From: a virus
Direction: 5' to 3' (one strand)
IMG/VR virus record: IMGVR_UViG_3300013131_000122
Coordinates: 1 to 34,989 of that record
DNA length: 34,989 bases
Shown: one piece after another, positions 7,925-26,539 of the stretch
Numbering within the stretch: the stretch's first letter is position 1
How the letters are laid out: every line of letters starts with the position of its first letter
Translations under genes and position numbers: made by a program
The notes under the pieces: model-generated
The model's database searches: none
What the model was told of the DNA's origin: nothing
Seen by the model: the letters and a program-made list of their open reading frames with translations, nothing else

Positions 7925-7955
7925 GAGGGTCTGGGGCTGGGGGTGGATATGCAAG
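7925..7955 (-). promoter_or_regulatory. Late promoter-like element, copy 1 (before tail fibre)
   Basis: On the minus strand: TTGCAT (7954-7949), 17 bp, then GACCCT (7931-7926), inside CCAGACCCTC. It fills the 44-bp gap between the 1060-aa ejection protein stop and the tail fibre ATG. The same architecture recurs at 20803-20831 and 24054-24082. GACCCT keeps the A2 and T6 of a sigma-70 -10 box but is otherwise weak, so a phage-modified or activator-dependent promoter is possible. Confidence 0.5.
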
Positions 7956-7957
7956 CC

Positions 7958-10900
7958 CTACCGGGCCGCCTCACTGGGTCGGAGCAGGTATTCCTGGCCG
8001 GTCTCTTTTTCGGCGCGCCGCTCCATGCGCCGCAGGTAGCCGGGGTTCAGCGCCTCCTGGATCTGCCAGAACACGAAGTAGTCCAGCGCGAGCCGGGTGT
8101 AGAACAGGTTCACGAACGGGGTGTTCTGCACGAGCAGGCGAAATGCCTTGGCGGAAGGGTCTTTCCCCGCCTTGGCGTCCTGCAGGAGATTCCACAGATC
8201 CTCGAACTTGCCCACCGTGGGGCCTGAAATTGTGGCGACCGGGCCGTTGCCGAACCGGCTGGCCTCCCCGAACAGGAAGTCGCCGTAGATCCCGAACCCG
8301 CCGCCCTGCTGCATGGCTGCGACCCACGTTTTCCAGTCCGTTGGATCGCGCGGCTGCTTGCCCTTCGCCAGATCCTTGGCGGCGCCGGCGAGATAGCCGA
8401 ACGCGGTGCTGGACACGATCAGCGCGGCCATGCCGCGGATCTCCTGCGAGCGCATATCGCGCAGCCGACGGGCGCCGTAGCCGTAAAGCTCCCGCCCCAT
8501 CTGCCGCTGCATGAAGCCGATGCCGAAGGACTTGAACTGCATCGCCGCCCGAGCCAGTTCGCCGGGGACGGTGCCGCGGCGGGTGCCGTGCCAGGTCGCC
8601 ACGGTGCGGGCGCGCGCATCGGGCGAGATGACCGCGTAGTTCATGCGGTCGATCAGGAGGGTCTGCAGGCGCACGGCGACGCCCTCGCGAACGTCCTGCA
8701 AGGCGCGGTCGATGGCCGGCTCCAGCCCGGCGAAATCGGCGGCGCTCTGCTTGGCCCGGTCCTGGATGCGCCGCTGGACGCCATCGGCGAAGTCGGCCAA
8801 CTCCTCCTCCCACTTCTGGCCGAGATCGCGCAGATCCTCCTGCAGCCGCTTGCGCAGCCGGCCGATCTCACCCGCAGCCGCCCGCTCGGCGGCGTCGGCG
8901 GTCGCCTCCACTTCGGCGGGCAGTTCGCGGTGTAGGCGCTGCAGGCCGCGCTCGATGTCGCCGGCCGCCTTCTTCAGGCTCGCCATGCGCTCCAGCGCCC
9001 GGCCCTTGTCGATGGTGGTGACCGATAGGGCAGCCTTGCCGATGTCGCGGATCTCGTCGCTCGGGCGCACACCGTAGCGCCAGAAGGCATTGGCGGCGTC
9101 GATGTCGAGTTGGGCGCGGGTCATCTCCTCCTGGATCTCGACCAGCCGGTCGTAGGCGCGCTGCGTGTCCTTGGCCAGCCGGTCCTCGGCGGCCGTCATC
9201 TGGCGGCCCTTGCGTGCCGTGATGGCCGCCTCACGGGCCTCGGCGAGGGCCTTCAGCCGATCCGCTATGCGCTGCTTGGCGCCGGCCAGCCGGGTCTCCA
9301 GCTTGGCGGTGCGCTTCTCCACCCACTCCAGCTCCTGCGCATCGCGCGCGGCGCGCTTGGTCACGCGCTCGGCCAGCCCGGCCTTCAGGGCGTTGATCCG
9401 GTCGGCAGCCAGTCCCGAGAACCGGCGGCGATCCATGCCGCGCACCGCTTCAGGGGTCAGCAGGGTCCGGCCGCCCATCTCGGCGACCGCACCCCGCACG
9501 ACCTCCCACTCGGCCGCGCCGATGTCGTATTGGGCGAGCAGCCGGACGGCGGCCTCGGGCAATTCCTCAAAGGCGCTGCCGGACAGATGCCCAAGATGCC
9601 CAGCGGTCGCGAGCAGGGAGGACTCGCGCATGATGTCGGTCCACTTCGTCAGGCCCGACAGCCGGAAAAACTGCCGCTGCGCCCGGCTCATCGCCCCCAC
9701 GGTGCCGTCCACCGCCGAGAAGCGGGCCGACAGCAGGCCCGTCATGCCCTCGGCGGCGTAGCCCAGCTCCGCGAGGATCGCCCGGCGCTCGGCCTTCGAC
9801 CCCGCCCCCTCGAGCAGCCGCTGGAAGGGCGCGAGCAACTGCCGCCCGATGGAGCCGAGGAAGTTCTGCCCCTGGTAGCGCAGCTCCATCGCGGTGGCGG
9901 GGATGTCCGTCACCGAGGACAGCACCGCCCCGCCGAGGGAGGCCATGTTGTTGATGCCGCGGGTCACGGTGCCGGAGATGCCCAGCAGGCGGTTGACCGA
10001 TGCCCCGGTGCGTCCGGCGACCTCCTGGTACAGCCCATGCGCCCAGCCCTGATCGGGGTTCCCGCGCGCCTCCATCGTGCGCAGGGCCTCGACGTTGCCC
10101 GCCGCCCGCAGGCGGTCGCGCACCTGCTGGTAGATGCTGCGCAGGTTGCCCTCGGGGTTGGTGCCCAGCACCCGCATCAGGCCCGTGGCGTCGGCTGAAC
10201 TCTCCAGCCCCCGCAGCACGGACTCACGCAGGTTGCCGCGGCCGAACTCGCGGTTGTAGGCCGACCAGTCATCGGCGGACTTGAAGTGCAGCACCCGCCC
10301 CTGTGACAGCTTCTTGGCGAGGTTGCCCGGCCCCTTGAACGCGGGCGCCTTGTCGCCGGGGACCGATTCGTGGATGCCGGTGACCAGCCCGCGGTAGGCC
10401 TCGTCCAGCCAGCGGTTCATGTCCTCCGGCGGGCCTTCGGGGAACATCCGCTCGAGGTCCAGGCGCGGCAGGATCGCGTCGCGCCACGCCTCGAAGCCCT
10501 GCTGCAGCATCCGGTCGGCGTCGTGGCTCTGGCGCACGATGTAGCCGTCCACCTTGCCGATCCACGCGCCCGCCCGGTTCGCGTCCACGCGGGCCTTGTC
10601 CTGCCAGCGCCGCACGATCAGGGCCAGCGCCTGCGCCTCCTTGGGCAGCTTGGCGAAGGCCTCCGGGGTATCCAGCGCCCACAGCCCGCGGGCCACCTCG
10701 TCATCCATCGCCCCGGACTTGAACAGGTCGAACAGCCCGGCGCGCTCCAGGTCGCCGATCAGCCCGCCGAGGTACTGCCCCCGCAGGGCCTGCTGGACGG
10801 CGTCGGCCGACATTCGGGTGCCCAGCCCCGTGCGGTTGGAACCGGCCAGCAGCGCGGTGATCCCCTCCCACGGCCGGTCGGGGAACTGCGTGGCGATGAA

Positions 10901-11140
10901 GTCCACCGCCTCCAACCGGATGCGGCGGTTGATCGCGGCGTTGCGCTTCTCGATGGCCGCCGCCCGCTTCAGGTCGTTCTCGATGCCCTGCGCAGCCTTC
11001 TGTGCAGCGTTCTGGCTCGGCATCCCGCCGGCCATGTAGTTGCGCTGCCGGCGCTTCAACTCGTCCAGCAGGTCATCCAGCTCGTCGTCCGTGAGGTCGG
11101 CGATCTCCCGGCGCAGGAGGATGGAACAGGATTCGGTCAT
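7958..11140 (-). CDS. Large internal virion (DNA ejection) protein
   Basis: This 1060-aa protein starts at ATG 11140, overlapping the previous stop by one base (TGATG). It begins with an acidic/basic helix (LTDDELDDLLDELKRRQR). Residues about 570-790 are long, highly charged, coiled-coil-like helices. The C-terminal 200 residues contain a hydrophobic stretch (GMAALIVSSTAFGYLAGAAK) and the pattern GKQPRDPTDW ... GGGFGIYGDFLFGE ... ISGPTVGKFEDLWNLL, which is characteristic of podoviral internal virion proteins. Size and place (last of the ejection proteins, before the tail fibre) match T7 gp16. I saw no lytic transglycosylase motif. Inferred role: packed in the capsid and injected to build the trans-envelope conduit. 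Confidence 0.75.
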   Translation of the reverse strand: MTESCSILLRREIADLTDDELDDLLDELKRRQRNYMAGGMPSQNAAQKAAQGIENDLKRAAAIEKRNAAINRRIRLEAVDFIATQFPDRPWEGITALLAGSNRTGLGTRMSADAVQQALRGQYLGGLIGDLERAGLFDLFKSGAMDDEVARGLWALDTPEAFAKLPKEAQALALIVRRWQDKARVDANRAGAWIGKVDGYIVRQSHDADRMLQQGFEAWRDAILPRLDLERMFPEGPPEDMNRWLDEAYRGLVTGIHESVPGDKAPAFKGPGNLAKKLSQGRVLHFKSADDWSAYNREFGRGNLRESVLRGLESSADATGLMRVLGTNPEGNLRSIYQQVRDRLRAAGNVEALRTMEARGNPDQGWAHGLYQEVAGRTGASVNRLLGISGTVTRGINNMASLGGAVLSSVTDIPATAMELRYQGQNFLGSIGRQLLAPFQRLLEGAGSKAERRAILAELGYAAEGMTGLLSARFSAVDGTVGAMSRAQRQFFRLSGLTKWTDIMRESSLLATAGHLGHLSGSAFEELPEAAVRLLAQYDIGAAEWEVVRGAVAEMGGRTLLTPEAVRGMDRRRFSGLAADRINALKAGLAERVTKRAARDAQELEWVEKRTAKLETRLAGAKQRIADRLKALAEAREAAITARKGRQMTAAEDRLAKDTQRAYDRLVEIQEEMTRAQLDIDAANAFWRYGVRPSDEIRDIGKAALSVTTIDKGRALERMASLKKAAGDIERGLQRLHRELPAEVEATADAAERAAAGEIGRLRKRLQEDLRDLGQKWEEELADFADGVQRRIQDRAKQSAADFAGLEPAIDRALQDVREGVAVRLQTLLIDRMNYAVISPDARARTVATWHGTRRGTVPGELARAAMQFKSFGIGFMQRQMGRELYGYGARRLRDMRSQEIRGMAALIVSSTAFGYLAGAAKDLAKGKQPRDPTDWKTWVAAMQQGGGFGIYGDFLFGEASRFGNGPVATISGPTVGKFEDLWNLLQDAKAGKDPSAKAFRLLVQNTPFVNLFYTRLALDYFVFWQIQEALNPGYLRRMERRAEKETGQEYLLRPSEAAR

Positions 11141-12789
11141 CAGCCGTCCCTCATCAGGCAGGTGACGGCCGCCTTGGCGATCTTCCCCCAGCGGTCGGTC
11201 TGCTTGGCGAAGTCCGCCGCGGCGCGGATGGTCTCGTCCTCGGCCTCCACGCCGAAGCGGGTGGCCACGGCGGCCAGTTCCTGCTCGGCGGCGGCCAGTT
11301 CCTCGGCTATCTCGGCATCGGCACGCTCGGCCGGCGCATCGGGGTCGGGAGCGTCACGGATCTCGGCGTCGATCTCGGCGGCGGTGCGCTCAGAGGTCAT
11401 CGCGGTATCAGGCGCGCGCACCTGTGGCGTCGGGGCCGCATCAGCAGCGCGCCCTGTCACGCGAAACACCGACTGCCCTTCCGGCACGTACTTCCCGGCG
11501 ATGCCCCCATCCAGAGCCTTCGCTGCCGGGTTCTCCTCCACCGAGTACCCGCGTTTGCGCAGGGCTTCGTAGACCCTCACGGCCGGAGCCTCCACGACAG
11601 AGTCGCTGACGAGTGGCACGCCGCGCTCAGCGGCCAAATCCGCGAGCCGGCTGTACAGGGCCACCCCGCGCCCCTGCCCCCGCATGGATGCATCAGGGAT
11701 CTCTGCCTTGACCACTCGAAGGCCGCCGTCACGGGCAACCGCAACGGCCTCGCCTGCGTCAGACGCGGCGGTCACGACGGTTTCACCGGCATCGTTCTGC
11801 CGCTCGGAAATGCGGACTCTCGGGTCAACGGGAGCAGCGAACGCATCCTCCACGTCCACCGCCCGCCCTTCGGCCACCTGCCCGACGGCGGCCCGCAAGG
11901 CCGGCTCGCGGACTTCTGGCGGGGCCGCCGCAACCCGCTCGGCCGCACCCGACGGCCGCTCGGCGCCGATCTCCAGGGCGGTGTCCATGCGGGCGGCCAG
12001 CTCCGGGTCGTTGCGCTCGATGGCCGCCTGCGTGATCTCGCGGCCACGAACATCGGCCAGCACCCGGCCGGCATCCGACAGGGGGCGCTCCCACGGCTGT
12101 TCCAGCCCGCGCGCGGCGCGCAGGGCCTCGGCCGAAGTTCCACCCACAACGTGCAGCCCACCGCCGAAGATCGTCCCGAAAGCGATGTTGGCGAGGCTGT
12201 CGGCCATGTCGTAATCGGCCTGCTCGGCCTGCTTCGCGGAGTAGATCAGCGGCTCGATCAGGGCCGCACCCGCAGCGCCCTCCACCGCACCAACCCCGGC
12301 GCGGATGCCCACCCGGCCCGCCGCGGTGGCGTTCTTCAGGAGCCGCAGGTAGCGCGCCTCGCCGAACACCGGGACGAAGGCCGAGGCGATGTTGATGGGG
12401 TCGGTCAGGCTCACGCCCAGCGCCAGCCCGAGCCGCGCGGAACTCTCGGCGAAGCCGCCGCGGGCGCGAGCCAGCGTCGTGTTGCGGCTGATCTCGTCCT
12501 TCTTGCGCTCGATCAGCAGGTCCAGCGCGCCCTCCGTGATGCCCTCATCCCCGACGGTCAGCGCACCCGTCAGCCCGGCGGCGTCGATCCGGGACACCGC
12601 CTCGTCACGCGCCATGCGCGGGCCGGTCGCCCTGGCGCTCGTGATCTCGGCGAACCGCTTGGCGGCCACGGTCGGCAGCTCCGTGACGGTGGAGGCGAAC
12701 TGCGCCTCCATCACGTCGCCGAAACTCGCCGGGATTTCCTCCAGCGGGACGAAGCTGCGGCGGGCGGTGTCCTCCACGTAGAGCGGCAT
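11140..12789 (-). CDS. Internal virion protein with embedded GNAT-like domain
   Basis: This 549-aa product starts at ATG 12789 with a one-base TGATG overlap. The N-terminal half is helical with an amphipathic, alanine/glycine-rich segment (GLALGVSLTDPINIASAFVP, then FGTIFGGGLHVVGG near residue 205), as in podoviral ejection proteins. Residues about 335-425 differ: a beta strand (VKAEIPDAS) is followed by MRGQGRGVALYSRLADLAAE, which fits the acetyl-CoA pyrophosphate loop (Q/R-x-x-G-x-G/A) of GNAT acetyltransferases, and then by AVRVYEALRKRGYSV, the usual GNAT closing segment. Activity is unproven. The C-terminus is acidic and helical. It lies between the 691-aa and 1060-aa ejection proteins. 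Confidence 0.65.
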   Translation of the reverse strand: MPLYVEDTARRSFVPLEEIPASFGDVMEAQFASTVTELPTVAAKRFAEITSARATGPRMARDEAVSRIDAAGLTGALTVGDEGITEGALDLLIERKKDEISRNTTLARARGGFAESSARLGLALGVSLTDPINIASAFVPVFGEARYLRLLKNATAAGRVGIRAGVGAVEGAAGAALIEPLIYSAKQAEQADYDMADSLANIAFGTIFGGGLHVVGGTSAEALRAARGLEQPWERPLSDAGRVLADVRGREITQAAIERNDPELAARMDTALEIGAERPSGAAERVAAAPPEVREPALRAAVGQVAEGRAVDVEDAFAAPVDPRVRISERQNDAGETVVTAASDAGEAVAVARDGGLRVVKAEIPDASMRGQGRGVALYSRLADLAAERGVPLVSDSVVEAPAVRVYEALRKRGYSVEENPAAKALDGGIAGKYVPEGQSVFRVTGRAADAAPTPQVRAPDTAMTSERTAAEIDAEIRDAPDPDAPAERADAEIAEELAAAEQELAAVATRFGVEAEDETIRAAADFAKQTDRWGKIAKAAVTCLMRDG

Positions 12790-14864
12790 CAGCGGCGCTC
12801 CATCTGCCCGCGCGGCGCCGGGCCACCCGCTGGCGGAGTCGGCAACTCGACGCCCAGCCCCAGCAATTCGTCCCAGGTGAACTGCACCGGGTCGCCGCGG
12901 TTGTTGCGCGGGACCATCTGGCCGTTCACGTACAGCCGCAGCCCGGACTCATCCGGGGCGGTCATCCAGTAGCCGTTGCGCCGGACCTCGTCCTGCAACT
13001 GGCTCAGGATCACCTCCTCGGCGGTCCCCGGCACCTGCTGCACCGTCCCCGAGGCGGCGCGGAACTCGCGCAGCGCGCGGGTCGCCCCGTCATCCACCAG
13101 CCCGGCGTCGAACTGCACCGGCACCCGGTAATCCCGCCCCCGGAAACTGGCGAAGGTGTACCGCTCGTTGGCCACGTCGGTGGCCGCCTTGGCCACGGCA
13201 TCCCCGAAGGAATCCCCGCGGCTCATGTAGGCCAGCGCCACCTGCTGCACGCTGTTCTTCACCGCGGTCAGCACCGGGGCGCCTTCCGGGCCGAACGTGG
13301 CAGACAGATCCTCCAACTCCGACTCGACCTCGTCGGACAGGTCGCGGCGGGTCTTGCCGGCCGGCAACAGCGCGTCCTGCTGATCCTTCGGCAGCATGGA
13401 CACCTGCGCCAGCGCGTCGGCGGCGCGCTTGGGGATTCCCGAGCCGATCACCAGTGCGGCGTCGGGCAGGTGCTTGGACACCTGCTTGTAGACCTCCGGC
13501 CACGCCGGCCCCCAGCGGTCGGACTCCGACGCCATGAGGGCAGCCACCGACTCCTGGCCGGGGGTGGCCATGCGGTCGGCGAGCGCGGACACGTAGCCCT
13601 CCGGGAGCGTCTGGCTGCCGGGGATGCCCAGCCGCTCGCGCTCGGCGCGGACGGCCGACAGGTACTCGGTGGGCGAGCCGCCCTTCTGCAAGGCCTCCCA
13701 CTTCTGCGCCACCAGCGGGCTGTACTGGATCAAGTAGCCGGCAGGATCCTTCTCCCGCGCCGCGATGATGCGCTGGGCGGGGCCGGCGGCGGCGCCGTAC
13801 AGGGCCGCCTGGTTGGCCGCGCCCTCCACCTGCGTGGGGGCGTAGGACTCCACCTTGGCCGCCAACTCGGTGTTGGACAGCAGGTGCATCCCGGCGATGT
13901 CCCTGGACAGCCCGACCATCTGCTGGGCCTGCGCGTACCGCTGGGCGCCGTCCTGCTCGCCGAAGGCGGCCACCAGCTCCGCGCGCGACGGCGTGGCCGA
14001 CACCGGCAGCCCAAGGCTGGCCGCGGTGGCGATGTCGCGCAGCCGGTCGCCCAGCACCTGCCGGTTCTCCACGGCGCGGGCCTTGGCTTCCGCTTCCCGG
14101 CGGCGGATCTCGGTCTCCGCCAGGTTGATGGCGCGCTCGCGGGACTCCACCGACAGCCCCTCCACGGCGCTGCGGCCGGACTTGCCGGGTTCCGCGCGCA
14201 GCGCCTTCAGGGCTGCCGTGGGGTCGCGCTCCACCAGTGTCTCGACGGCCGATGCCGACAGGGCTTGGCGCGCCCGCAGCTTGCGGGCCTCGGTCTCCGC
14301 CGCTCCCAGCCCCGCGATGTCGATGGTCTCCAACTGATCGGCCAGCACAGAATCGAACTGCTCGGGCTTGGCCCGCAGCAGCGTCCGGGCCGTGCCCTCG
14401 GCCTCATCCAACTGGTTCCCGCGCAACGTGCGCCGGCTGTCGGACTCGAACTTGAGCGCGTCCTGCGACAGCGAGTTGCCGAAGTCCCCGAGTCGGGCTT
14501 CCAGCCACTCGCGGGCATCCCGCGTGGGGGCGTTCTTCAGCCGCTCGGCGGCGAACTCGTCGTAGTCCTTTAGCAGCGTGGTGGTGAAGTCAGGAGCCCC
14601 AAGGGGCGCCTTCTCGCTGCGCTCGGTCAGTTGCTTCTGCCATTCCGCCTGCGTGGTGAGGTAGGCCTTGTTGGCCCACACCCGGCCCTCCCGCAGGCGC
14701 ATCTCGGCGTCCGCGTTGTTCACGTCGTCCTGCGCCCGGGCGACCTGCCCCAGGGCCTGCCCGACGACCGCAGTGGAGCGGCCCACATCGGCAGGGGCCA
14801 CGGGCTGGATGCCCATCGTCCCCTGCGGGGTGGCGCGGCGCTGGTAGGTCGGAATTTGCGGCAT
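12789..14864 (-). CDS. Internal virion protein, 691 aa
   Basis: I chose ATG 14864 because it forms the TGATG overlap seen at neighbouring junctions; a TTG one codon earlier is also in frame. The protein is predominantly helical, with long charged stretches at residues about 50-120 and 170-260 (rich in E, R, A) and few cysteines or aromatics. A central segment (SVAALMASESDRWGPAWPEV) resembles the middle of T7 gp15-like proteins, but I see no clear SLT catalytic signature. Position between the 156-aa and 549-aa internal proteins supports a gp15-like role in the ejection complex. Family assignment rests mostly on context. Confidence 0.65.
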   Translation of the reverse strand: MPQIPTYQRRATPQGTMGIQPVAPADVGRSTAVVGQALGQVARAQDDVNNADAEMRLREGRVWANKAYLTTQAEWQKQLTERSEKAPLGAPDFTTTLLKDYDEFAAERLKNAPTRDAREWLEARLGDFGNSLSQDALKFESDSRRTLRGNQLDEAEGTARTLLRAKPEQFDSVLADQLETIDIAGLGAAETEARKLRARQALSASAVETLVERDPTAALKALRAEPGKSGRSAVEGLSVESRERAINLAETEIRRREAEAKARAVENRQVLGDRLRDIATAASLGLPVSATPSRAELVAAFGEQDGAQRYAQAQQMVGLSRDIAGMHLLSNTELAAKVESYAPTQVEGAANQAALYGAAAGPAQRIIAAREKDPAGYLIQYSPLVAQKWEALQKGGSPTEYLSAVRAERERLGIPGSQTLPEGYVSALADRMATPGQESVAALMASESDRWGPAWPEVYKQVSKHLPDAALVIGSGIPKRAADALAQVSMLPKDQQDALLPAGKTRRDLSDEVESELEDLSATFGPEGAPVLTAVKNSVQQVALAYMSRGDSFGDAVAKAATDVANERYTFASFRGRDYRVPVQFDAGLVDDGATRALREFRAASGTVQQVPGTAEEVILSQLQDEVRRNGYWMTAPDESGLRLYVNGQMVPRNNRGDPVQFTWDELLGLGVELPTPPAGGPAPRGQMERR

Positions 14865-15334
14865 CAAATCAACTCCAGCGCCCGGCGCCGCTGGCCGTAG
14901 TAGCGGGCGTCCGCCATCCCGGCGAGCAGCGAGGCCCCCGATCCGGCGATCCCCGAGAGCATGGCGTTACGCCCCGAGGCCTTCGCCGCGGCCGACTGGT
15001 AGCGCAGGCCCCGGCTGCGAAGCTGTCCCGCATATCGGGTGGTCAGGGCCTCCAGCTCGAGGTTCGTGCCCGTGTCCTCCATCGTCTTGCGAGCGGTGTC
15101 CGTGAACCCGCCGCCGGACTCCGCGATGGCCGCGGCCTGTTCGGACAGGAACTGCCGCGCCGCCTTGCGCTGGGCGGACTCGGCCTCCCGCGCCTGCGCC
15201 CCGGCGATCTTCGCCTCCTGGTCGAGAACGGCCGCCTGCTCGGCAGCGGTGTCGCGGGCCTGCATCCCGCCGAACAACTGGCCCATGACCTGCGTGGCGG
15301 TGGCAGCACGGGAAAGGGCTACGGGGTCAGCCAC
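14864..15334 (-). CDS. Small internal virion protein
   Basis: This 156-aa protein begins at GTG 15334 with GGAG about 10 bases upstream, and overlaps the GNAT-like gene end by 8 bp. It is alanine/glutamine/arginine-rich and helical (QAREAESAQRKAARQFLSEQ), with a glycine-rich hydrophobic C-terminal segment (LSGIAGSGASLLAGMADARYY). Small, helical, Ala-rich proteins in this position, just before the two large internal proteins, correspond to T7 gp14-like internal virion proteins. Membrane interaction of the C-terminal segment during ejection is inferred. Confidence 0.6.
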   Translation of the reverse strand: MADPVALSRAATATQVMGQLFGGMQARDTAAEQAAVLDQEAKIAGAQAREAESAQRKAARQFLSEQAAAIAESGGGFTDTARKTMEDTGTNLELEALTTRYAGQLRSRGLRYQSAAAKASGRNAMLSGIAGSGASLLAGMADARYYGQRRRALELI

Positions 15335-15728: not shown

Positions 15729-18148
15729 CAGTTGTTGGTCGTCACACGGGGGTACAGCGCCACCACCGTCATGGGCAGCGGCTGGTGCTGTTCCACGCAG
15801 ATGTAGCCGTCCGTCTCGTAGCCTGAATTGAGGGTCACCGACTTGTCCCCGGTGTACAACGGGGGCGGGGAATCCATCGGCATGGACGGCGTGCGGTACT
15901 GGATTTCCTCCAGATCGTTCCACGTGGAACCCATCCGCCCGCCCAGCGAGCGGTACAGGCGCACCGAACACTTCCCCAGCCGCTTGGTCTTGGTCTGCGC
16001 AGTGCCATCGGCCGAACCTGCGTCCAGCCGCATGGGGCGAATCCGCCCGACGTATCCCAGCCCGACGTGCACCACCTCGGCCGGAGCAGCAAGCGTGATC
16101 GCCCCGCCGCTCACCGTCCGGTCGGGATGCGTCGCGCCATCGGCCAGCACCTTGACGGTCTCGCCCTCCAGGTGATCCAGCCCGCTGATCGTCGTGGCCG
16201 CGGCGCCGTCGTAGGTCAGGCCGCAGTCCACATGGAAGGCGTCCTCTTGGTCCCCATCGGCCGGCAGCAGGGCCTCCAGGAACTCGAGGTAGCGGGCCGA
16301 TCCCCGGCGCACGCAGAAGAACACGTCATCCTTGGAGCCATCGGGGGAGGGGATGACGGTGGCGGACTCCACGACCCCGGACTGCGGGTGGCGGTGCCAG
16401 CCGAACACCTGCTGGTCGGGTTCGTGGGTGTAGCCGATCAATCCGCCATCGGTAAGCCCTGCCCATACCACGCTCCACGGGTGCCGCTGGTGAACCATCC
16501 ACGTCACCCCCGGACTGGTGATGTGCTCGGCCAGCAGGGTGCGGTCGGAGGCGGAATACGCGGTGGCCTCGTCGAACACGATCTCGCGCACCCGGCGCTG
16601 GTTCTTCTCCACGAAGAACACGCTCTTGCCGACCTTCAAGGCCCGCACGCCGCTGCCGCCGTAGGCACTGCGGGCATCCACCGTGCTGTTGGTGGGGCCG
16701 TAGGGGTTGGAGGTCGAGGCCGGCGCGATGACGAACTCCGCATCTGCCGTGCCCACGAACAGCGCCACCCCGGCCTCCATCCAGCGGATGGCGTTGTTGT
16801 CGCGCGACTGCAGGCGGATGTTCACCGCGCTCTCGGCGACCTGCTCGTTGAACTCGTCGGGGGCGAACTTCTCGTACTCGGCGGACTTCGACAGCCACAC
16901 GTCACGAAGCCCGGCAAAGACCAGCCGCTCCTTCCACAGGGACACGAACCGCGGGTACTCGTTGTGATCGCCCCACGCGCCGAACTTCCAGCGCCACGTT
17001 CCGTCGTTCTCCACGCCGAAGGGCAGCGGCGTCAGCACCTCGGCGTCCACCTCGGTGGGCGAGGTGTAGGCGGTGATCCGCGCCACCCCGTAGCCGGAGT
17101 TCTGGTACTCCCAGTAGATGCCCACGTTGGACCCGAACCCGGCGTCGGGGTAGATGCCCCGCGTGTGGGTGGGCCGCACCGAGCCGGTCGTGGACGGATA
17201 GGTGCCGTCCACCGCCCCGGTGGACAGGTACTCGTTGCCGTCCGAGATGCGCCACACGTCATTGCTGCTCACCGTCTGGTCGGGTTCCCACACCCTCATC
17301 CCATCGGCGTCGTAGCGTTCCAGGCGGATAAGTGCCCCGACATGGGCCGCGGTGAACACGTCGGCGGAGGCCGTCAGCGTCACCGTCCCGGTCACGTCGT
17401 CGGCCTGGATCGTGAGGGTCTCGTCCTCGTTCATGTCCATGAACGGGCCGTCGTCGGGGATCAGCTCGGCAATCGTCCAGCTCGTGGCCGAGAGCCGGGA
17501 GAGCTTCTGCGGCGGCTGCCCGCCCCCGGCGATGTACACCACGTCCCCGGACTGCAGGAACGACAGCGAACACGTCCCGTCGGGGTTCTCGAGATCTGCC
17601 GCGGCATAGGGGGTCTGCACCACCAGCGGGGCCACCATCTCACCGCCCGAGGTGTACGTCCCGCCGAAAGTCGAGGACACGAGATCAATCGTCCCGGAGG
17701 ACGGGCACTCGATCCGCCACGTCCCGGTGGCGTTCGGGATCCCGCCCACGTCGGCCACCGTCACCTCGAGCCCCGCCACCAGCCCGTGGCCAGCGATGGT
17801 CAGCCGGATCCGGCCCGTCCCGTCATTGGCAGCCCCCGTGATCGCGAGGGTCTGCACCACCCGGCCACGGTCGGAGATGAAGCCCAGCGCCCCGTCGTTG
17901 AACTCCAGGACGGAGGCCTGCTCGTAGTTGAACTCGAAGCGGGTCAGCCACGAGCGGGTCGCCTGCAGCAGGCACTCCCCCACGAACCGGGTGCCGGGCC
18001 GAAAGTGCGCCGGCCCCTGTACCGTGGGGATGAAGTTCTCCAGCGTGTCGCAGGCGGAGGGGTACTTCTCCAGCGAAGTCCGCCCGGCCAGCAGGGGCGA
18101 GAACTCACCCCCGTTGAATGACTCGATGGCCGGCGCGGCCCGCGGCAT
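15728..18148 (-). CDS. Tail tubular protein B / stabilization protein (gp12-like)
   Basis: The 806-aa protein starts at ATG 18148, overlapping the gp11-like stop (TGATG); a longer reading to 18604 would lie over that gene in another frame and is rejected. The start MPRAAPAIESFNGGEFSPLL followed by TLENFIPTVQGPAHFRPGTRF is the typical N-terminus of podoviral stabilization or nozzle proteins. Later segments YPRFVSLWKERLVFAGLRDV and TWMVHQRHPWSVVWAGLTDG also fit the family. Residues about 109-169 hold an inserted FCCH-like module (IRLTIAGHGLVAGLEVTV ... STFGGTYTSGG), absent from T7 gp12 itself as far as I know, and like those in the spike at 3064. Role: lower part of the short tail tube, holding fibres. 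Confidence 0.85.
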   Translation of the reverse strand: MPRAAPAIESFNGGEFSPLLAGRTSLEKYPSACDTLENFIPTVQGPAHFRPGTRFVGECLLQATRSWLTRFEFNYEQASVLEFNDGALGFISDRGRVVQTLAITGAANDGTGRIRLTIAGHGLVAGLEVTVADVGGIPNATGTWRIECPSSGTIDLVSSTFGGTYTSGGEMVAPLVVQTPYAAADLENPDGTCSLSFLQSGDVVYIAGGGQPPQKLSRLSATSWTIAELIPDDGPFMDMNEDETLTIQADDVTGTVTLTASADVFTAAHVGALIRLERYDADGMRVWEPDQTVSSNDVWRISDGNEYLSTGAVDGTYPSTTGSVRPTHTRGIYPDAGFGSNVGIYWEYQNSGYGVARITAYTSPTEVDAEVLTPLPFGVENDGTWRWKFGAWGDHNEYPRFVSLWKERLVFAGLRDVWLSKSAEYEKFAPDEFNEQVAESAVNIRLQSRDNNAIRWMEAGVALFVGTADAEFVIAPASTSNPYGPTNSTVDARSAYGGSGVRALKVGKSVFFVEKNQRRVREIVFDEATAYSASDRTLLAEHITSPGVTWMVHQRHPWSVVWAGLTDGGLIGYTHEPDQQVFGWHRHPQSGVVESATVIPSPDGSKDDVFFCVRRGSARYLEFLEALLPADGDQEDAFHVDCGLTYDGAAATTISGLDHLEGETVKVLADGATHPDRTVSGGAITLAAPAEVVHVGLGYVGRIRPMRLDAGSADGTAQTKTKRLGKCSVRLYRSLGGRMGSTWNDLEEIQYRTPSMPMDSPPPLYTGDKSVTLNSGYETDGYICVEQHQPLPMTVVALYPRVTTNN

Positions 18149-18753
18149 CAGAGCCTCCCACGCAGCCAGGTGTCGTCGTCTACCGCCTTGGCGGGGATCT
18201 CGATGGCGTTCGCCCGGGCCGCCTCCCGCAGGGCCTGCTTGTAGTCCGCCCAGGCCTCCTCCTTGCGCGGGCCACTGTCGGCCAGGGGGATGGCCAACTC
18301 GTAGGCCAGCCGTGCGCTCAGGGCCTCCACGAACGCCGGGTCGAACTGCGTGGGGTCGGTGACCTGCCGGATGTAGCGGATCTTCAGCGGGGAGTCGTAG
18401 TCGGTGAGGATCCGCCGGCCCTCGATGGTGTAGTCCTCCCGGTCGATGCTGTCCCGGTACTCGTCCAGGTTCAGCCCCGGCGAGAACTCGCCCGCGGACA
18501 GCAGCCGCAGGAAGTCGGCGGGCAGGTTGTACTGGTAGCTGAAGCCGAAGGCCGGCGCCTCGGCCAGCTTGGCGAGGCTGTCGCGGGCCTTGGCGAAGGA
18601 CCACACATGACGCCGCAGCTCGGCGTCGCGGATGGTGTCGAAGCGGCGGGTCAGTTCCCGAGCGGCGGCCGTCTCGTCGTCGAAGCTGACGATCTGCCCG
18701 GCGCCGATCTTCGACAGCGCCCCGTTCGCGATGCTGACGTTGGAGACCGCCAC
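18148..18753 (-). CDS. Tail tubular protein A (gp11-like adaptor)
   Basis: This 201-aa protein uses GTG 18753, four bases after the stop of the small spike-base-like gene. The N-terminus (VSIANGALSKIGAGQIVSF) followed by RRFDTIRDAELRRHVWSFAK and YQYNLPADFLRLLSAGE is the hallmark of T7 gp11-type tail tubular A proteins, and the length is normal for the family. It forms the ring below the portal to which the gp12-like nozzle attaches. It is translationally coupled to that partner gene by a TGATG overlap. Confidence 0.9.
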   Translation of the reverse strand: MAVSNVSIANGALSKIGAGQIVSFDDETAAARELTRRFDTIRDAELRRHVWSFAKARDSLAKLAEAPAFGFSYQYNLPADFLRLLSAGEFSPGLNLDEYRDSIDREDYTIEGRRILTDYDSPLKIRYIRQVTDPTQFDPAFVEALSARLAYELAIPLADSGPRKEEAWADYKQALREAARANAIEIPAKAVDDDTWLRGRL

Positions 18754-18757
18754 ACGG

Positions 18758-19003
18758 TTACACGAAGGCCGTGATGCCGGTGGCCGCGGTGCCCGTCGAG
18801 TAGACGCGCTTCACGCGGCCGGGAAAGATGCCCGCAGGGACCGTTGTCGAGACCTCCGTCCCGTCGGGCCGCTGGACGTGCAGCGTGCCACCCACCGCGA
18901 TCAGCAGGCAGCGCGCCTCCACGGCGATGTCCGCCCCGTCTGCCGGGGTGACGGCGAAGTAGTCCTCGGCGGTTTCCAGGCCCCGCCGGCCTGCGGTTGC
19001 CAC
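18758..19003 (-). CDS. Small spike-base-like protein (RCAP_rcc01079-type)
   Basis: This 81-aa protein starts at GTG 19003, one base after the previous stop. It has the pattern of small phage spike-base proteins: FAVTPADGADIAVEARCLLI, then GTLHVQRPDG, then VPAGIFPGRVKRVYSTGTAA, a compact beta fold ending in a conserved arginine and STGT. I recognise the family by pattern only. Placement right before the gp11/gp12-like genes and in a genome with three spikes makes a role in spike attachment or head decoration plausible. Confidence 0.55.
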   Translation of the reverse strand: MATAGRRGLETAEDYFAVTPADGADIAVEARCLLIAVGGTLHVQRPDGTEVSTTVPAGIFPGRVKRVYSTGTAATGITAFV

Positions 19004-19004
19004 G

Positions 19005-19205
19005 TTACGTGTTCGCCGGGGGCCAGACCGGCGACTCCGACAGCTTGGCGAGGATGCCCTGCACCGCCTGGATCGTCTCCAGCCGGGTCGTGGACGCGTC
19101 CACCAGGACGCGCAGCTCCACTGCCTTGCTCGTCGTGGACGACGCCACGGTCAGTTCGACCGGGATGCTGTCGCCCACGTCGGCGCCGATGAAGGTGTCT
19201 GCCAT
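19005..19205 (-). CDS. Unknown 66-aa virion-module protein
   Basis: The ATG at 19205 has CGGAG eight bases upstream. The protein starts MADTFIGADVGDSIPVELTV and has a helical second half (TRLETIQAVQGILAKLSESP). No family is recognised. It lies between the hairpin at 19224-19254 and the spike-base-like gene, so it opens the short tail-assembly group. The two halves suggest a small beta strand pair followed by an amphipathic helix. Confidence 0.55.
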   Translation of the reverse strand: MADTFIGADVGDSIPVELTVASSTTSKAVELRVLVDASTTRLETIQAVQGILAKLSESPVWPPANT

Positions 19206-19223
19206 GTGAGACTCCGAAAGAGC

Positions 19224-19254
19224 GGGGCCGAGGGGATCACCTCCCCCCGGCCCC
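19224..19254 (-). terminator. Strong GC hairpin after capsid gene pair
   Basis: The minus-strand RNA can form a 13-bp stem, GGGGCCGGGGGGA pairing with TCCCCTCGGCCCC, around a 5-base loop GGTGA. The single imperfect pair is G-U only on the minus strand, which fits a leftward transcript. It follows the 168-aa gene stop by 6 bp. The downstream T-tract is poor (CTCTTTC), so partial termination or mRNA 3'-end protection of capsid transcripts is as likely as full termination. Confidence 0.6.
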
Positions 19255-19259
19255 TGCGG

Positions 19260-19766
19260 TTACACGACGTACAGGACCTCGACCTTCTGGGCCGAGTTCG
19301 CGTCGGCCATGATCTCGGTCACGGTCGCAGCCACGTCGTAGTCGATGCCCGGATCGCTCGTGAGACCCAGCGCCGACCACAGCGGCTCGTCGGACTCGTC
19401 CAGGCTGTACTGCCCGGACTCGTGCGTGACGTTCGTCGGGGCGATGGCGCCGCCGCCCGGATCCAGCGCCGAGGCGAAGAAGTCGGCATCCACCACCGCA
19501 CCGCCGTTCTCGGCGGTCTGGTAGAGACCGATGTCCACCTGGCCCGTGGCGCCGGAGGCCTCGGCCGCGTAGATCACGGCCGACACCCGCGCGTTGGAGG
19601 GGACGCGGCAGAAGCGGTAGGTGGAACCCACCGAGTCCGACGCGCTGTTGTTGACCACGCCCATCGCCGACTTCAGCACCCCGCCGGAGACGTTCGCGTT
19701 GTTCACGACACGCGGCGTCGCCGTCAGGTTGGTAATGGCCGGGGACTTGAGGTGCACGACTGCCAT
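19260..19766 (-). CDS. Capsid-adjacent structural protein, 168 aa
   Basis: The gene follows the capsid gene directly; its SD GGGAG overlaps the capsid stop and the ATG is at 19766. The predicted protein is mostly beta (MAVVHLKSPAITNL, STYRFCRVPSNARVSAVIYA, TGQVDIGLYQTAENGG), with a C-terminal KVEVLYVV. Proteins of this type regularly follow the capsid gene in BPP-1-like and related podoviruses and are probably head decoration or stabilisation proteins. This is context-based; no enzyme motif is visible. Confidence 0.6.
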   Translation of the reverse strand: MAVVHLKSPAITNLTATPRVVNNANVSGGVLKSAMGVVNNSASDSVGSTYRFCRVPSNARVSAVIYAAEASGATGQVDIGLYQTAENGGAVVDADFFASALDPGGGAIAPTNVTHESGQYSLDESDEPLWSALGLTSDPGIDYDVAATVTEIMADANSAQKVEVLYVV

Positions 19767-19770
19767 GTGA

Positions 19771-20667
19771 TTACTCCCTCACCCAGATGCGGGTGATCTT
19801 CTTCTCTTCGAGGCGCGTCGCACCGAGGGACTGGAAGGCGTAGACCTCCCAGGGGTTGCCCTTGTACTCCTTGGCCTCGCGGACCTCCATCTTCTGGTTC
19901 TGCCACATGCCGAGGTGCATCCCCGACTTGGCCCACAGCGGGATGGAGCGCGACGTGCCGGCCGCATCGTCCGTGCCGGTCACGAGGAGCTGGCTGTGGA
20001 TGAACTCCACGCCCAGCAGCCGCTTCAGCCGGCCGTTGACGATCACCGGGTCCATCGCCGCGCGGTACTCGGCGCCGATGACCTGGATCTCGTTGAGCAG
20101 GTCGGCGTTGGCACCGGCGTTGATCGCGCAGTAGATCTGGTCGTCCTCGTCCACCTCGTGGCCCTGGAGCAGTTCCAGCGCGGCCTTGATCTTGGCCACG
20201 TTCATGCCCGAGGTCGTGCCGCCCACGCTCACGCTCACCGTGTTGCCGGCGAGGATGGACGTGGCCGTGGTGCCGGTCTTGCCGGTCTGCGCGTCCGCGG
20301 TGAAGGCCGCGATGATCGTGCGATCCTTGCGGCGGTTGATGGAGTTGACGGTGTTCTGCACGTACGCCGACTTGTGGTCGGCCACCATCTTCAGCTTGTC
20401 GAACGTGTCGATGAGCTGCTGGATGTCCCAGTCGGACGGCGACACCCACCGACGATCCACGGGGGCGTCGGTGCGGGTCTTGGGCTCGAACCGGGAATTG
20501 ACCTGCGACATCTCCACCACGCCGACCTGATCGACGGGGGAAGCCTGCTCGCCGGTGTAACTGCCGGTGGTGACGGCGGCAGCGAACTTGGACTGCTTCT
20601 GCTGCAGCAGGAGCGCGACGTTGCTCGCGTACTGCTGGCTGTAGTGACTGAGCAAGTTGATGCTCAT
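19771..20667 (-). CDS. Major capsid protein
   Basis: The 298-aa product starts at ATG 20667 behind an excellent SD (GGAGGTCA). It matches the podoviral HK97-fold capsid family seen in BPP-1-like phages: N-terminal SHYSQQYASNVALLLQQKQS, conserved PVDRRWVSPSDWDIQQLIDT, the helical GMNVAKIKAALELLQGHEVD and QIYCAINAGANADLLNEI, and the C-terminal SIPLWAKSGMHLGMWQNQKM with YEV-type ending KKITRIWVRE. It has its own long leader (about 134 nt) after the terminator and a copy of the three-copy promoter-like element, consistent with high, separate expression. It follows the scaffold gene, the usual order. Confidence 0.9.
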   Translation of the reverse strand: MSINLLSHYSQQYASNVALLLQQKQSKFAAAVTTGSYTGEQASPVDQVGVVEMSQVNSRFEPKTRTDAPVDRRWVSPSDWDIQQLIDTFDKLKMVADHKSAYVQNTVNSINRRKDRTIIAAFTADAQTGKTGTTATSILAGNTVSVSVGGTTSGMNVAKIKAALELLQGHEVDEDDQIYCAINAGANADLLNEIQVIGAEYRAAMDPVIVNGRLKRLLGVEFIHSQLLVTGTDDAAGTSRSIPLWAKSGMHLGMWQNQKMEVREAKEYKGNPWEVYAFQSLGATRLEEKKITRIWVRE

Positions 20668-20801
20668 GGACTTGACCTCCGAAAGTTGGAACGCTTCCGG
20701 TCAGCCTTGTCCTCGCGGGGGCTTACCTTGCCGGTATGCGCGCCGGCCGCGCGACTGTCTTTCCAGTGCCAGCGGGGTCCGTAGACTTGTCCGCTTGAAT
20801 T

Positions 20802-20831
20802 GAGGGTCTGGTGCTGATTCGCAGATGTCAA
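20802..20831 (-). promoter_or_regulatory. Late promoter-like element, copy 2 (before capsid)
   Basis: On the minus strand: a perfect TTGACA (20831-20826), 17 bp, then GACCCT (20808-20803) within CCAGACCCTC. The spacer core TCTGCGAATC is shared with copy 3. In this copy GGTGCT and AGCACC can pair across the element. It starts only five bases after the T-tract of the scaffold terminator. Confidence 0.55.
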
Positions 20832-20835
20832 GCAC

Positions 20836-20861
20836 CAAAAGAAAGGCCCCCGAAGGGGCCT
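20836..20861 (-). terminator. Rho-independent terminator after scaffold gene
   Basis: On the minus strand the stem AGGCCCC/GGGGCCT (7 bp) is closed by a TTCG tetraloop and followed by TTTCTTTT. It lies 20 bp after the scaffold stop codon. It would separate the portal-scaffold transcript from the capsid transcript, which has its own promoter-like element immediately downstream. Confidence 0.85.
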
Positions 20862-20880
20862 AGGTGGTGGTGGCGGAAAT

Positions 20881-21693
20881 CTACGCGGCCTGCGAGATGA
20901 GCAGGTCCAGCCGGTCCTTCTCGGCCTTCGCCGCGGCGTCGCCCTCGGCCCACTTCGCGAGCCAGGCGCCGTCCTGCATGAGCTGGTCGAGCCGGGCCTG
21001 CGCGGCCTGCTTGGACACCGGGGCCGCAGCGCCCTGCCCGCCCTCGGCGAACCGGCCCTCGCCCAGCATCTTCCCGGCGGCGGCCATGAACTTCATCATC
21101 GGCGCCGAACCCCAGGCGGATTCCAGCATCTCCAGGTTCTTCGCCGTGGCCTCGGCATCCCAGCCCAACTCCAGGGACAGGGACTGCACGAACCGCTGGC
21201 CCAGCGCGGCGTTGGTGGCGAACTGCCCACCCCACTCCTGCTGCAGGGCCGTCATCTGCTCGGCCACCTTCGCCTCGGCGGCAGCCTGTGCCGCTGCCTG
21301 TTGCTGGCCGGCGTACTCGTTCAGCGCCCCCACCAGCCCCTCGGCGGCCTTCGCCGGGATGCCCAGCTTGTGCAGGATCGGCGCCATGTGCTTGGCGAAG
21401 CCGTCGGACTGCCCCTCGGGGACGGCGAGCTTGTAGCCCTCCGGGTTCTCCGGCACGCCGAGCTTCGCGTGCAGGGCCTTCCAGCCCTCCGCGTCGTTCT
21501 CGTCCTTGGGCATCAGGAACGTCCGGCCCGCCTTCTCGGCGCCCACCAGCGTCTCCAGGTTGCGGTAGGACGCGATGGCCTTGTCGGGGCTGTCCCAGCC
21601 CTTGTTCTCGATGTAGCCCTTCACGTCGTCGGCTACGGTGCCGTACCACGGGGCGGCGGCCCCACCCTCTGCGCCAGTTGCTTCATCCATCAT
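20881..21693 (-). CDS. Capsid scaffolding / assembly protein
   Basis: This 270-aa protein starts at ATG 21693 (a second ATG follows directly) with GAGGT eight bases upstream, overlapping the Bbp19-like gene by 11 bp. It has the standard podoviral scaffold layout: acidic N-terminus with YIENKGWDSPDKAIASYRNL, then FLMPKDENDAEGWKALHAKL and PEGYKLAVPEGQ, a central Ala/Gln/Glu coiled coil (QQQAAAQAAAEAKVAEQMTA), and a charged C-terminus for capsid binding. It directly precedes the capsid gene, as is usual. It is expected to be absent from or processed in mature virions. Confidence 0.85.
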   Translation of the reverse strand: MMDEATGAEGGAAAPWYGTVADDVKGYIENKGWDSPDKAIASYRNLETLVGAEKAGRTFLMPKDENDAEGWKALHAKLGVPENPEGYKLAVPEGQSDGFAKHMAPILHKLGIPAKAAEGLVGALNEYAGQQQAAAQAAAEAKVAEQMTALQQEWGGQFATNAALGQRFVQSLSLELGWDAEATAKNLEMLESAWGSAPMMKFMAAAGKMLGEGRFAEGGQGAAAPVSKQAAQARLDQLMQDGAWLAKWAEGDAAAKAEKDRLDLLISQAA

Positions 21694-21979
21694 TGTCTGC
21701 GACCTCGCGAATGTTGATGACGAAGCGGTCGCTCAAGTGCAAATGCTCGAGGATCCGCAGCCACACCTCGCGCCGCCCTTCGGCCTGCGCGGAAGCGATG
21801 GGGTCGATGACTCCCGCCGTGCTGGAGTACACGCTGGTGGACTTGTGGGCGCGGCAGAAGCGCGCCAGGTCGTTCAGCACGATGGCCGGTTCCGGGCGGG
21901 GTTCGCCGGTCTCGCCGAGGAACGTCCGGCGGTAGGCGTCCCGGCGCTGCTTGACCGTCTCGGCGCGACTACGCGGCAT
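21683..21979 (-). CDS. Bbp19-family phage protein
   Basis: The 98-aa protein starts at ATG 21979, overlapping the portal gene end by 11 bp. The sequence YRRTFLGETGEPRPEPAIVL followed by NDLARFCRAHKSTSVYS and EGRREVWLRILEHLHLSD fits the Bbp19-type family named after Bordetella phage BPP-1. It lies between portal and scaffold, the same neighbourhood as in BPP-1-like phages. Its molecular role is not known to me; context suggests head assembly. Confidence 0.75.
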   Translation of the reverse strand: MPRSRAETVKQRRDAYRRTFLGETGEPRPEPAIVLNDLARFCRAHKSTSVYSSTAGVIDPIASAQAEGRREVWLRILEHLHLSDRFVINIREVADNDG

Positions 21980-23570
21980 TCGTCAGGCCGGCATCCTTCG
22001 CCGCCTTGGCGATCCCCGGCGCCTGCTCGGCCGCCTGCTGGGCCATGAGCGTCTGTTCGCGCTTGGCACGCAGTTCGGCCACCGCCTTGGGATCACGCAG
22101 TTGCTTCACCGGCATTCCGTTGATCTGCGCCACGTCGCGGGCGATCTGGTCGGTGTCGTAGTTGTCCAGCAGGCTCGGATCCACCGCGGCCAGCGGGCCG
22201 ACGGTTTCCAGCGTGCGGGCCACCGCCAGGGATTCGCCCGACCGCTGGATGCGGGTGAGCGGGCCGTCGTACTCGATCTTGTACTCGCCGCCGGCCTCCA
22301 GCAGCACCTCAGGCATCGGGGGGAGTTCGCCGGAGCGGGCCAGCAGGTCGATCTCGCGCTCCACGAGCTGGCCCAGGAACTCCTGCTGCCGGCCGATCAC
22401 CGGACCCAGCAGCATTCCCTGCTCCTGCGCCCGCTGCAGGGACTCGGTGGCGGTCATCTGGGGATGGTCCACCACGACCTGCAGCAGGGTCACGTAGAAG
22501 CTGTCGTTGATGATCCGCTGCTCGATCTCCATCAACTCCACGCCGATGTCCACCCGGGCGCCGGGGTTGAAGGGCTTCACCAGCTCCTCGCCGGAATCGT
22601 TCAGCGCACCGCCATTCAGGGCGCCGGGCCGCAGGTTGAAGCCCTGCAAGGCGCCGTCCTCGGTCAGCATCAGCGGCGGGTCCACGGCCTTCTGGCCGGC
22701 GCGCACGATGGTGCGCTTCATCTCGTTCAGGGTCTTGAGGGTGGGCAGCACCCACACCGCAGGGCCACGGGCGTACACCTCGCCAGCCAGCGTCACGTCG
22801 CGCATCGTGGGGTAGGGCCACGAGAAGTAGTGCGACTCCTCGAGGACCGACTTGAAGTCCTGGCAGATCCACGTCGAGGCGAACTTCGCCCCGGCGGGAT
22901 ACCGCCTGCGCTGGGCCTCATCCACCGGGAGCGTGGCGTGGATGAACCAGAACATCTGGTCGGGGTTCTTCTCCAGCGCGGTGTTGATCTGCGGGGGCAG
23001 GCTCTTGGGCCACTGACTGGCGGCCTGCCGGGCGCTGTACTGGAACCGGCGGTAGAGCGTGTCCACGATGCCGACGTGGTTCTCCGCGTAGTAGGACTCC
23101 GACAGCGGGATGGCCCGGTAGCGGATGCCCCTGCCGGGCACTTCGTCCACGAACAGCGAGGCATTGCCGAGGCTGCCGTGGCAGTAGTGGGCCGTTCCCA
23201 GCGCCCCGGTGAAGCCCGCATGGGGGGCGTACCGGCGGCGGAAGATCAGCTTGTTCAGCTCCTCGAAAAAGCCCTTGACCTCGTAGTCCTCCTCCAGCGA
23301 CTCGTCGGCGGGCTTCAGGGTGTGGTACACCGCGGTGCGCGGCATCCCGAGGGATTCCAGGATGGCTGCGTACTTGCGCAGGGCCAGCGCCCCGGTGGCG
23401 TCGTAGAGCTTGTCCTGCCGGTCCTCGCCGGGCGTGCGGGGGCCGAGGAACTGCGCCTCGCCGGGCAGCACCCGCTCGGCGACCTGCTGGAAAAGCACGT
23501 CGAAGTTGGAGCGGTTGGAGGCCAGTTGCTCCAGCCGCTTGATGTGCCGGTCGGCGACGGTCTCGCTCAC
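21969..23570 (-). CDS. Head-tail connector (portal) protein
   Basis: The 533-aa product starts at GTG 23570 with a GTGA overlap to the previous stop. It matches the T7 gp8-type head-tail connector family: HIKRLEQLASNRSNFDVLFQ, QVAERVLPGEAQFLG, the crown and wing segments GTAHYCHGSLGNASLFVDEV and RAIPLSESYYAENHVG, then a C-terminal helical part with VVDHPQMTATESLQRAQEQG and LLGPVIGRQQEFLGQLVERE. Length is normal for the family. It forms the dodecameric ring through which terminase packages DNA and to which the gp11-like adaptor binds. Confidence 0.92.
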   Translation of the reverse strand: MSETVADRHIKRLEQLASNRSNFDVLFQQVAERVLPGEAQFLGPRTPGEDRQDKLYDATGALALRKYAAILESLGMPRTAVYHTLKPADESLEEDYEVKGFFEELNKLIFRRRYAPHAGFTGALGTAHYCHGSLGNASLFVDEVPGRGIRYRAIPLSESYYAENHVGIVDTLYRRFQYSARQAASQWPKSLPPQINTALEKNPDQMFWFIHATLPVDEAQRRRYPAGAKFASTWICQDFKSVLEESHYFSWPYPTMRDVTLAGEVYARGPAVWVLPTLKTLNEMKRTIVRAGQKAVDPPLMLTEDGALQGFNLRPGALNGGALNDSGEELVKPFNPGARVDIGVELMEIEQRIINDSFYVTLLQVVVDHPQMTATESLQRAQEQGMLLGPVIGRQQEFLGQLVEREIDLLARSGELPPMPEVLLEAGGEYKIEYDGPLTRIQRSGESLAVARTLETVGPLAAVDPSLLDNYDTDQIARDVAQINGMPVKQLRDPKAVAELRAKREQTLMAQQAAEQAPGIAKAAKDAGLTNAA

Positions 23571-24046
23571 TGGCCCAGCAGCGCCTTCGTCGCCGTGTTG
23601 GGCTTGCCCGAGACCCCCAGCGGGCTGGTCAGGATGTTGGCCGCCCCGCCGCGCTTCTTCGCCAGACGGTCCTGCAGCTCCTGCGACTGCCGGGCCGCAT
23701 CACTGGTGGGCACCTTCGGGGCCGCAGGGATCTTCGGCGTCTTGGACAGCAACGGGGTGAAGCCGGACAGGACGCCCGCCCCGGTCAGCGCCTTGGAGGC
23801 GAGACTGGTCCCGGCCACCTCCCCCACCGTGGGGGCGGCGGTAGTGGCGGCGAGGTTGGTCAGGGCGGCGGTGGCCGACTGCACGCCTTGGGTCGCAAGG
23901 GCCGCTTCGGCCGCCGACATGGCGCCCGTGGCTGCCGCCGCACCCGTGGACGCCGCAGCGCCTGTGGCAGCACCGCCGGCCGCAGCCGCCGTCGTGCCGG
24001 TGACGGCGCTCTGGAGCGCCGCGAACATCGCAGGAACGAATGCCAT
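23567..24046 (-). CDS. Structural protein with conserved TiLTsp...LLGQ tail
   Basis: I chose ATG 24046 (MAFVPAMFAAL), giving 159 aa. Residues about 10-100 are extremely Ala/Gly/Thr-rich and hydrophobic, possibly membrane-active. The C-terminus, QELQDRLAKKRGGAANILTS plus a final KALLGQ, matches a tail motif recurring in podoviral proteins encoded next to the portal. The promoter-like element ends 7 bases before the ATG, so a transcript starting at the usual distance would be nearly leaderless; no SD is visible. Role is probably a minor head or internal protein. Confidence 0.65.
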   Translation of the reverse strand: MAFVPAMFAALQSAVTGTTAAAAGGAATGAAASTGAAAATGAMSAAEAALATQGVQSATAALTNLAATTAAPTVGEVAGTSLASKALTGAGVLSGFTPLLSKTPKIPAAPKVPTSDAARQSQELQDRLAKKRGGAANILTSPLGVSGKPNTATKALLGQ

Positions 24047-24052
24047 GCACCC

Positions 24053-24083
24053 GAGGGTCTGGCACCGATTCGCAGATTGCAAG
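24053..24083 (-). promoter_or_regulatory. Late promoter-like element, copy 3 (before 159-aa gene)
   Basis: On the minus strand: TTGCAA (24082-24077), 17 bp, GACCCT (24059-24054) within CCAGACCCTC. The spacer shares TCTGCGAATC with copy 2. It fills the 39-bp gap between the terminase stop and the next ATG and would drive portal and scaffold genes. Confidence 0.55.
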
Positions 24084-24085
24084 GG

Positions 24086-26254: not shown

Positions 26255-26412
26255 GGGCAGGCCTCGCGAATTATTGTAGACGGATCACGGGAAAAGGCTT
26301 CGTCAATCTTCGCTTTCGCCATCCGCAGATCCAATTCGCGGCGGCGGTCATCGTCGCGGAGCTGTCGATCTTCCTTGGCGGTCTTGCGCTTCGGGACGGG
26401 CTTGCGCTTCAT
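26251..26412 (-). CDS. Unknown 53-aa highly charged protein
   Basis: ATG 26412 has a strong SD (GGAGG, 7 bases before). The product begins MKRKPVPKRKTAKEDRQL and is over 40% charged, with the centre RDDDRRRELDLRMAKAKIDE. The longer in-frame reading to 26505 runs into the GC repeat tract and lacks support. It opens the terminase gene group. No family recognised; nucleic-acid binding is a guess from charge. Confidence 0.55.
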   Translation of the reverse strand: MKRKPVPKRKTAKEDRQLRDDDRRRELDLRMAKAKIDEAFSRDPSTIIREACP

Positions 26413-26436
26413 CTCGTTGCCTCCGAGGCGTGAAAG

Positions 26437-26532: not shown

Positions 26533-26539
26533 CAGCGCC

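Follow-up and report, generated by a model that had tools for sequence, protein, structure and literature searches.

A repeated late promoter-like element with a sigma70-like -35 box and a lineage-specific -10 block in an HTVC010P/BPP-1-like podophage

Gene content of the window and location of the element

The stretch of DNA analyzed here, hereafter the window, is a linear virus record of 34,989 bases with T7-like structural genes. These comprise the terminases, p171 (phrog_831), the portal, a scaffold-type gene, the capsid, the tail and internal virion proteins and the tail fibers. Erf, NinB/Orf, a replication-initiation-like gene, a DNA methyltransferase and a Cro/YdaS-like regulator are also present (Table 1). 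The window belongs to a podophage of temperate type whose structural genes are of the HTVC010P/BPP-1 kind, and its kin are HTVC010P-type pelagiphages and BcepC6B/BPP-1-like and Stenotrophomonas podophages. The nearest contig found, G004 (41,843 bp), encodes a major capsid protein (MCP) 62% identical to that of the window, as well as an integrase, an excisionase and a CI-like repressor. Two sets of tandem repeats were observed in the window. About ten imperfect 10-bp repeats of the GCC-GCGCC type, at 26436-26535, sit in and beside the gap that separates the 26251-26505 frame from the 26540-27154 gene, and a 12-bp repeat of the GCTGCCGCGTGG type occupies 34732-34980, the right contig end, where it may be the cause of the assembly stopping.

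Table 1. Positions of the genes and putative regulatory features in the window.
Feature	Position	Strand	Remarks
Tail fiber gene	5409-7913	-	First gene past copy 1
Late promoter copy 1 (putative), CTTGCAT-N17-GACCCT-C	7925-7956	-	Ahead of tail fiber gene; G004 counterpart at 8167
Major capsid protein (phrog_3437)	19771-20667	-	First gene past copy 2
Structured MCP leader RNA	20665-20805	-	Downstream of copy 2; covariance model match 33.5 bits, E 4.6e-6 (window alone)
Late promoter copy 2 (putative), CTTGACA-N17-GACCCT-C	20802-20833	-	Ahead of MCP leader and MCP; G004 counterpart at 28715
Intrinsic terminator, AGGCCCCTTCGGGGGCCT-TTCTTTT	20844-20861	-	After scaffold-type gene, just upstream of copy 2
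Portal (phrog_332)	21969-23570	-	Next after p171
p171-like gene (phrog_831)	23567-24046	-	159 aa from ATG 24046; first gene past copy 3
Late promoter copy 3 (putative), CTTGCAA-N17-GACCCT-C	24053-24084	-	Between terL and p171; G004 counterpart at 31999
Cro/YdaS-like regulator	31086-31304
Canonical early promoter, TTGACA-N18-TACTAT	31294-31323	-	Sigma70 consensus scan
Canonical early promoter, TTGACA-N18-TACAGT	31348-31377	+	Sigma70 consensus scan
Erf	32319-33041
NinB/Orf	33837-34280

Genes cover 98.6% of the late region (3-26048, minus strand), which leaves 359 gap bases (1.4%). Only four gaps in this region are longer than 30 bp, and three of them hold a copy of the element TTGNNN-N17-GACCCT, with its second hexamer within CCAGACCCTC. 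An earlier note made from the sequence alone had described these three minus-strand sites in gaps before late gene groups (p171/portal, MCP and tail fibers). Their positions and strand were correct, and the N17 spacing and the surrounding CCAGACCCTC are exact. The sequence that it reported as common to the spacers of copies 2 and 3 is TCTGCGAATC, and the terminator that it placed ahead of one copy was found upstream of copy 2. Inspection by eye revealed no hairpin common to the three copies. The fourth late gap (19206-19259), which follows the MCP and gp11-like genes, has no copy of the element and contains a GC-rich hairpin that is possibly a terminator.

The arrangement TTGNNN-N17-GACCCT occurs four times in the window, compared with 0.16 expected from shuffled sequences. 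Occurrence inside genes, an outcome that the earlier note had set against its own proposal, was limited to one of the four matches, located within a gp12-like tail gene (15831-15859) and lacking the CCA. The complete CCAGACCCTC is found exactly three times, each time in this arrangement. Scored with a matrix derived from these sites, they reach 38-48 bits, with the next-best site in the window at 15. Under random placement, the probability that all three copies fall in gaps is about 1.7e-6. The de novo test was weaker: of 60 third-order Markov simulations, one produced some TTG-anchored 10-mer in three copies with a common offset, so the weight of the repeat rests on its position and on the relative G004. 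This modest significance is what favors chance likeness or a repeat unrelated to transcription, for example a recombination seam joining modules. Such an explanation is hardly credible, since all three sites lie in gaps and, in G004, the same three borders carry that phage's own repeated element with the same geometry. A scan of IMG/VR for TCTGCGAATC-N4-CCAGACCCTC produced no exact match. The eight matches to TTGACA-N14-CCAGACCCTC were all within open frames and were taken as chance; CCAGACCCTC also falls within a gene in the relative L019/G006 and is matched at G008:22790.

The gap that holds copy 2 also contains a conserved, strongly covarying structured leader RNA upstream of the MCP gene, and the same leader precedes this gene in L067, L090, L016, L110 and about 40 other loci. 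The model has 19 base pairs; across 44 loci (42 distinct), 90.7% of the cells are paired and 17 of the 19 pairs show changes on both sides. The covariation score was 0.511, compared with 0.155 after shuffling and no more than 0.07 when the controls were slid, in an alignment that was fitted to the model and thus favors it. No Rfam match was found at gathering level in the window and relatives, or with permissive settings in three relatives. In many relatives, AAGCCCTTC could pair, as judged by eye, with the GGAGGG Shine-Dalgarno region, which suggests translational control. In L005 the capsid leader gap contains a tRNA gene (7293-7364; anticodon GTT, Asn, by eye).

Early promoters and counterparts in relatives

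The three boxes of the window (TTGACA, TTGCAA and TTGCAT) resemble the sigma70 -35 TTGACA, and their distance to the second hexamer, 17 bp in all three copies, falls within the 16-18 bp typical of sigma70 promoters. At that spacing, where TANNNT would be anticipated, there is GACCCT in the window and GAGCTT in G004. The contrast between a normal -35 and an odd -10, to which the earlier note drew attention, is real, as this phage's early promoters carry canonical -10 hexamers. When the window was scanned for the sigma70 consensus, the only two matches were the divergent early promoters, and the G004 early region contains TTGACA-18-TAATCT (by eye). A matrix scan detected no copy of the late element in the early control region of the window. 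Thus, one canonical element is kept and the other is swapped for a common block in all late copies (3/3 in the window, 4/4 in G004), while the early promoters are canonical, and the odd -10 appears to be tied to the late set rather than to the sigma70 of the host.

The G004 element consists of TTGAC or TTGCA followed, after 15-16 nt, by CAGAGCTTC. It occurs in four copies, three at borders homologous to those of the window (fiber, capsid and p171) and the fourth ahead of another late gene. CAGAGCTTC is carried in a 16-bp block, CGCACAGAGCTTCCGG, which is the same in all four, the -35-like boxes are TTGACA, TTGACT or TTGCAT, and the spacing to the second hexamer is 17-18. Of the 9 block positions, 7 are the same in the two genomes (CAGA-S-C-Y-TC) and the offset is nearly equal, with a chance of about 0.003 at fixed offset; the spacers are otherwise unrelated in sequence. 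Counted from the TTG hexamer, CAGA lies at an offset of 15 in six of the seven copies of the two genomes and of 16 in the other, which corresponds to the geometry of sigma70 -35 and -10 elements. This constant distance argues that one protein complex contacts both. As read from the sequences, the -35-like box and the sigma70-like spacing are conserved and the -10 block is lineage-specific.

The survey was extended to other loci that encode a related capsid protein, about 80 of them from IMG/VR and four on contigs of bacterial genomes. One relative, L032, is a prophage-like element in Nitrosovibrio sp. Nv4. The capsid gap in these loci often contains a sigma70-like promoter, many with TTGACA-N17, and a second one is present in the terL/p171 gap in many of the loci checked. 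Together with the repeated G004 element at the same three borders, these promoters give strong comparative support to the promoter function proposed in the earlier note. The two gaps are more alike within a genome than between genomes (32 genomes, p = 1.2e-5, the genomes being related and not fully independent), and the window ranked at the top of this test with 27/36. Such likeness is expected if a phage-specific factor, or copying, maintains it.

Copying is part of another explanation, in which a GC-rich host reads the elements as ordinary sigma70 promoters whose -10 is weak, the repeat reflects recent promoter copying and no phage factor is needed. The hexamer GANNNT retains the A at position 2 and the T at position 6, and A at position 2 of the -10 is enriched among the relatives anchored by TTGACA (18 of 31). 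A -10 that starts with G is present in the window, G004 and some others, with GAGCAT (L040) or GAGGAT (L053) at N17 in several relatives, and TANNNT is frequent among the less GC-rich ones. We consider this explanation somewhat unlikely because a block equal over 10 bp in three of three copies, and over 16 bp in four of four in G004, between spacers that differ, goes beyond what sigma70 needs, and the early promoters of both phages have a canonical -10 and no block.

In several GC-rich relatives (L041 2791-2830, L043, L094, L097, L100 and L059) and in the G004 copy at 28715, a palindrome spans the -10 of the capsid promoter, as in GGGCGCAGC-N10-GCTGCGCCC, possibly an operator or a hairpin. In L044 and L090/L031, the -35 TTG is within a short palindrome (GTTGTC-GACAAC or GTTGCC-GGCAAC) repeated in the terL/p171 and capsid gaps.

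Instead of standing in for the -10, the block could overlap the promoter as an operator at which a phage repressor or activator binds. Both types of palindrome agree with this possibility, as does the Cro/YdaS-like regulator encoded in the window. We regard it as quite unlikely: the window blocks and the block common to the G004 copies are asymmetric, the constant 15-16 distance from the block to the TTG would be needless for a free operator, and the early control region has no copy.

Proposed mode of late transcription

The interpretation that we favor, to which we assign a probability of about 0.6, is that the three elements are late promoters used by the host RNA polymerase, with a normal -35, a phage-specific -10 region and, probably, the need for a late factor. 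It starts from what was established above, namely the repetition, the gap positions, the layout and spacing kept in G004 and the canonical early promoters. The host RNA polymerase holoenzyme would touch the TTGNNN box as a normal -35, and the block located where a -10 is usually found (CAGACCCTC in the window, CAGAGCTTC in G004) would act as the -10 region. Since sigma70 alone would recognize this block poorly, its opening is probably aided by a phage late factor. Transcription would then start downstream of each block and generate the p171-portal-scaffold, capsid-tail-ejection and tail-fiber units. Against this interpretation stands the position of copies 1 and 3, where transcripts initiated at the standard distance from the -10 would begin only 0-6 nt from the ATG, and the window mRNAs would be leaderless or nearly so. 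The block of copy 1 is about 11 nt from the fiber gene ATG, and the AAAGG ahead of that gene would fall outside such a transcript. A Shine-Dalgarno sequence is not obvious at the p171 ATG. The G004 copies, by contrast, have space for a leader. Also against the interpretation, blocks repeated exactly in several copies are evident only in the window and G004, and the late-gap promoters of many relatives have an ordinary TANNNT -10.

The requirement for an activator or an altered polymerase, also suggested in the earlier note, is at present a deduction from the poor -10. No gene emerged that could be named as an activator, and neither sigma70 region 4 nor the antiterminator Q (searched as PF06530) was found in the window, an incomplete record, or in the longer G004 record. 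The family scans made identified no AsiA-, MotA-, gp55-, C- or Ogr-like factor. Several unannotated small genes are present at 26012-31410, none of them recognizable as a late activator. No early protein common to the window and G004 was detected, which also speaks against the favored interpretation, and no common early gene emerged as a late-factor candidate. A more specific version of the late-factor interpretation, which we regard as unlikely, is that a small phage factor binds RNA polymerase, leaves sigma70 region 4 on the -35 and overrides or replaces -10 recognition with a preference of its own that co-evolves with the block between phages.

Promoters for a single-subunit T7-type RNA polymerase encoded off-contig were also considered. 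The exact repetition and the placement before the scaffold/portal, capsid and fiber genes would suit them, and yet PF00940 was absent from the window (an incomplete record), the 41.8-kb G004 record and seven other relatives, in a search that detected the T7 positive control. A TTG box at 17 bp is also alien to that type of promoter, and sigma70-like promoters occupy the same places in many relatives. This candidate was rejected as very improbable. The sigma54 and sigma32 consensus sequences did not fit, as judged by eye.

Comparison with known promoter systems

HTVC010P/BPP-1-like podophages are abundant, and their late transcription is apparently unmapped; no relevant paper on it or on the promoters of HTVC010P or BPP-1 was found in the open-access literature. 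The same switch before three blocks of virion genes, together with its partly rewritten analogue in G004, suggests virus-specific activation of late genes through the host RNA polymerase. The elements share with standard sigma70 promoters (TTGACA-N17-TATAAT) the TTGNNN box, the 17-18 bp spacing, the location in gaps before operons and, in the second hexamer, the A at position 2 and the T at position 6. They differ in that TANNNT is missing and a block of 10-16 bp is constant within a phage and different between related phages. T7 class III promoters precede the scaffold/portal, capsid and fiber genes, the same gene positions as in the window, but here no single-subunit RNA polymerase was found and the -35 and spacing are sigma70-like. 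The temperate gene content and the spacer sequence common to copies 2 and 3 are reminiscent of a lambda-type late promoter with Q, from which the window differs by having several late promoters instead of one and no match to PF06530.

T4 middle and late promoters and those of the Mu/P2 type are activator-dependent, and the -35 is usually the missing part. The elements described here resemble them in that one consensus element is kept and the other is phage-specific, and in the presence of several late promoters per genome. They differ in which part is kept, as here the -35 stays and the -10 is replaced. A factor that overrode -10 recognition would mirror the T4 pair MotA/AsiA, in whose case the -35 contact is the one replaced. 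Known phage examples mostly retain the -10 and replace the -35; relatives that keep the -35 but rewrite the -10, if that is what they do, would implicate a phage factor in retargeting the host RNA polymerase, and the conserved promoter layout would supply a motif for finding it.
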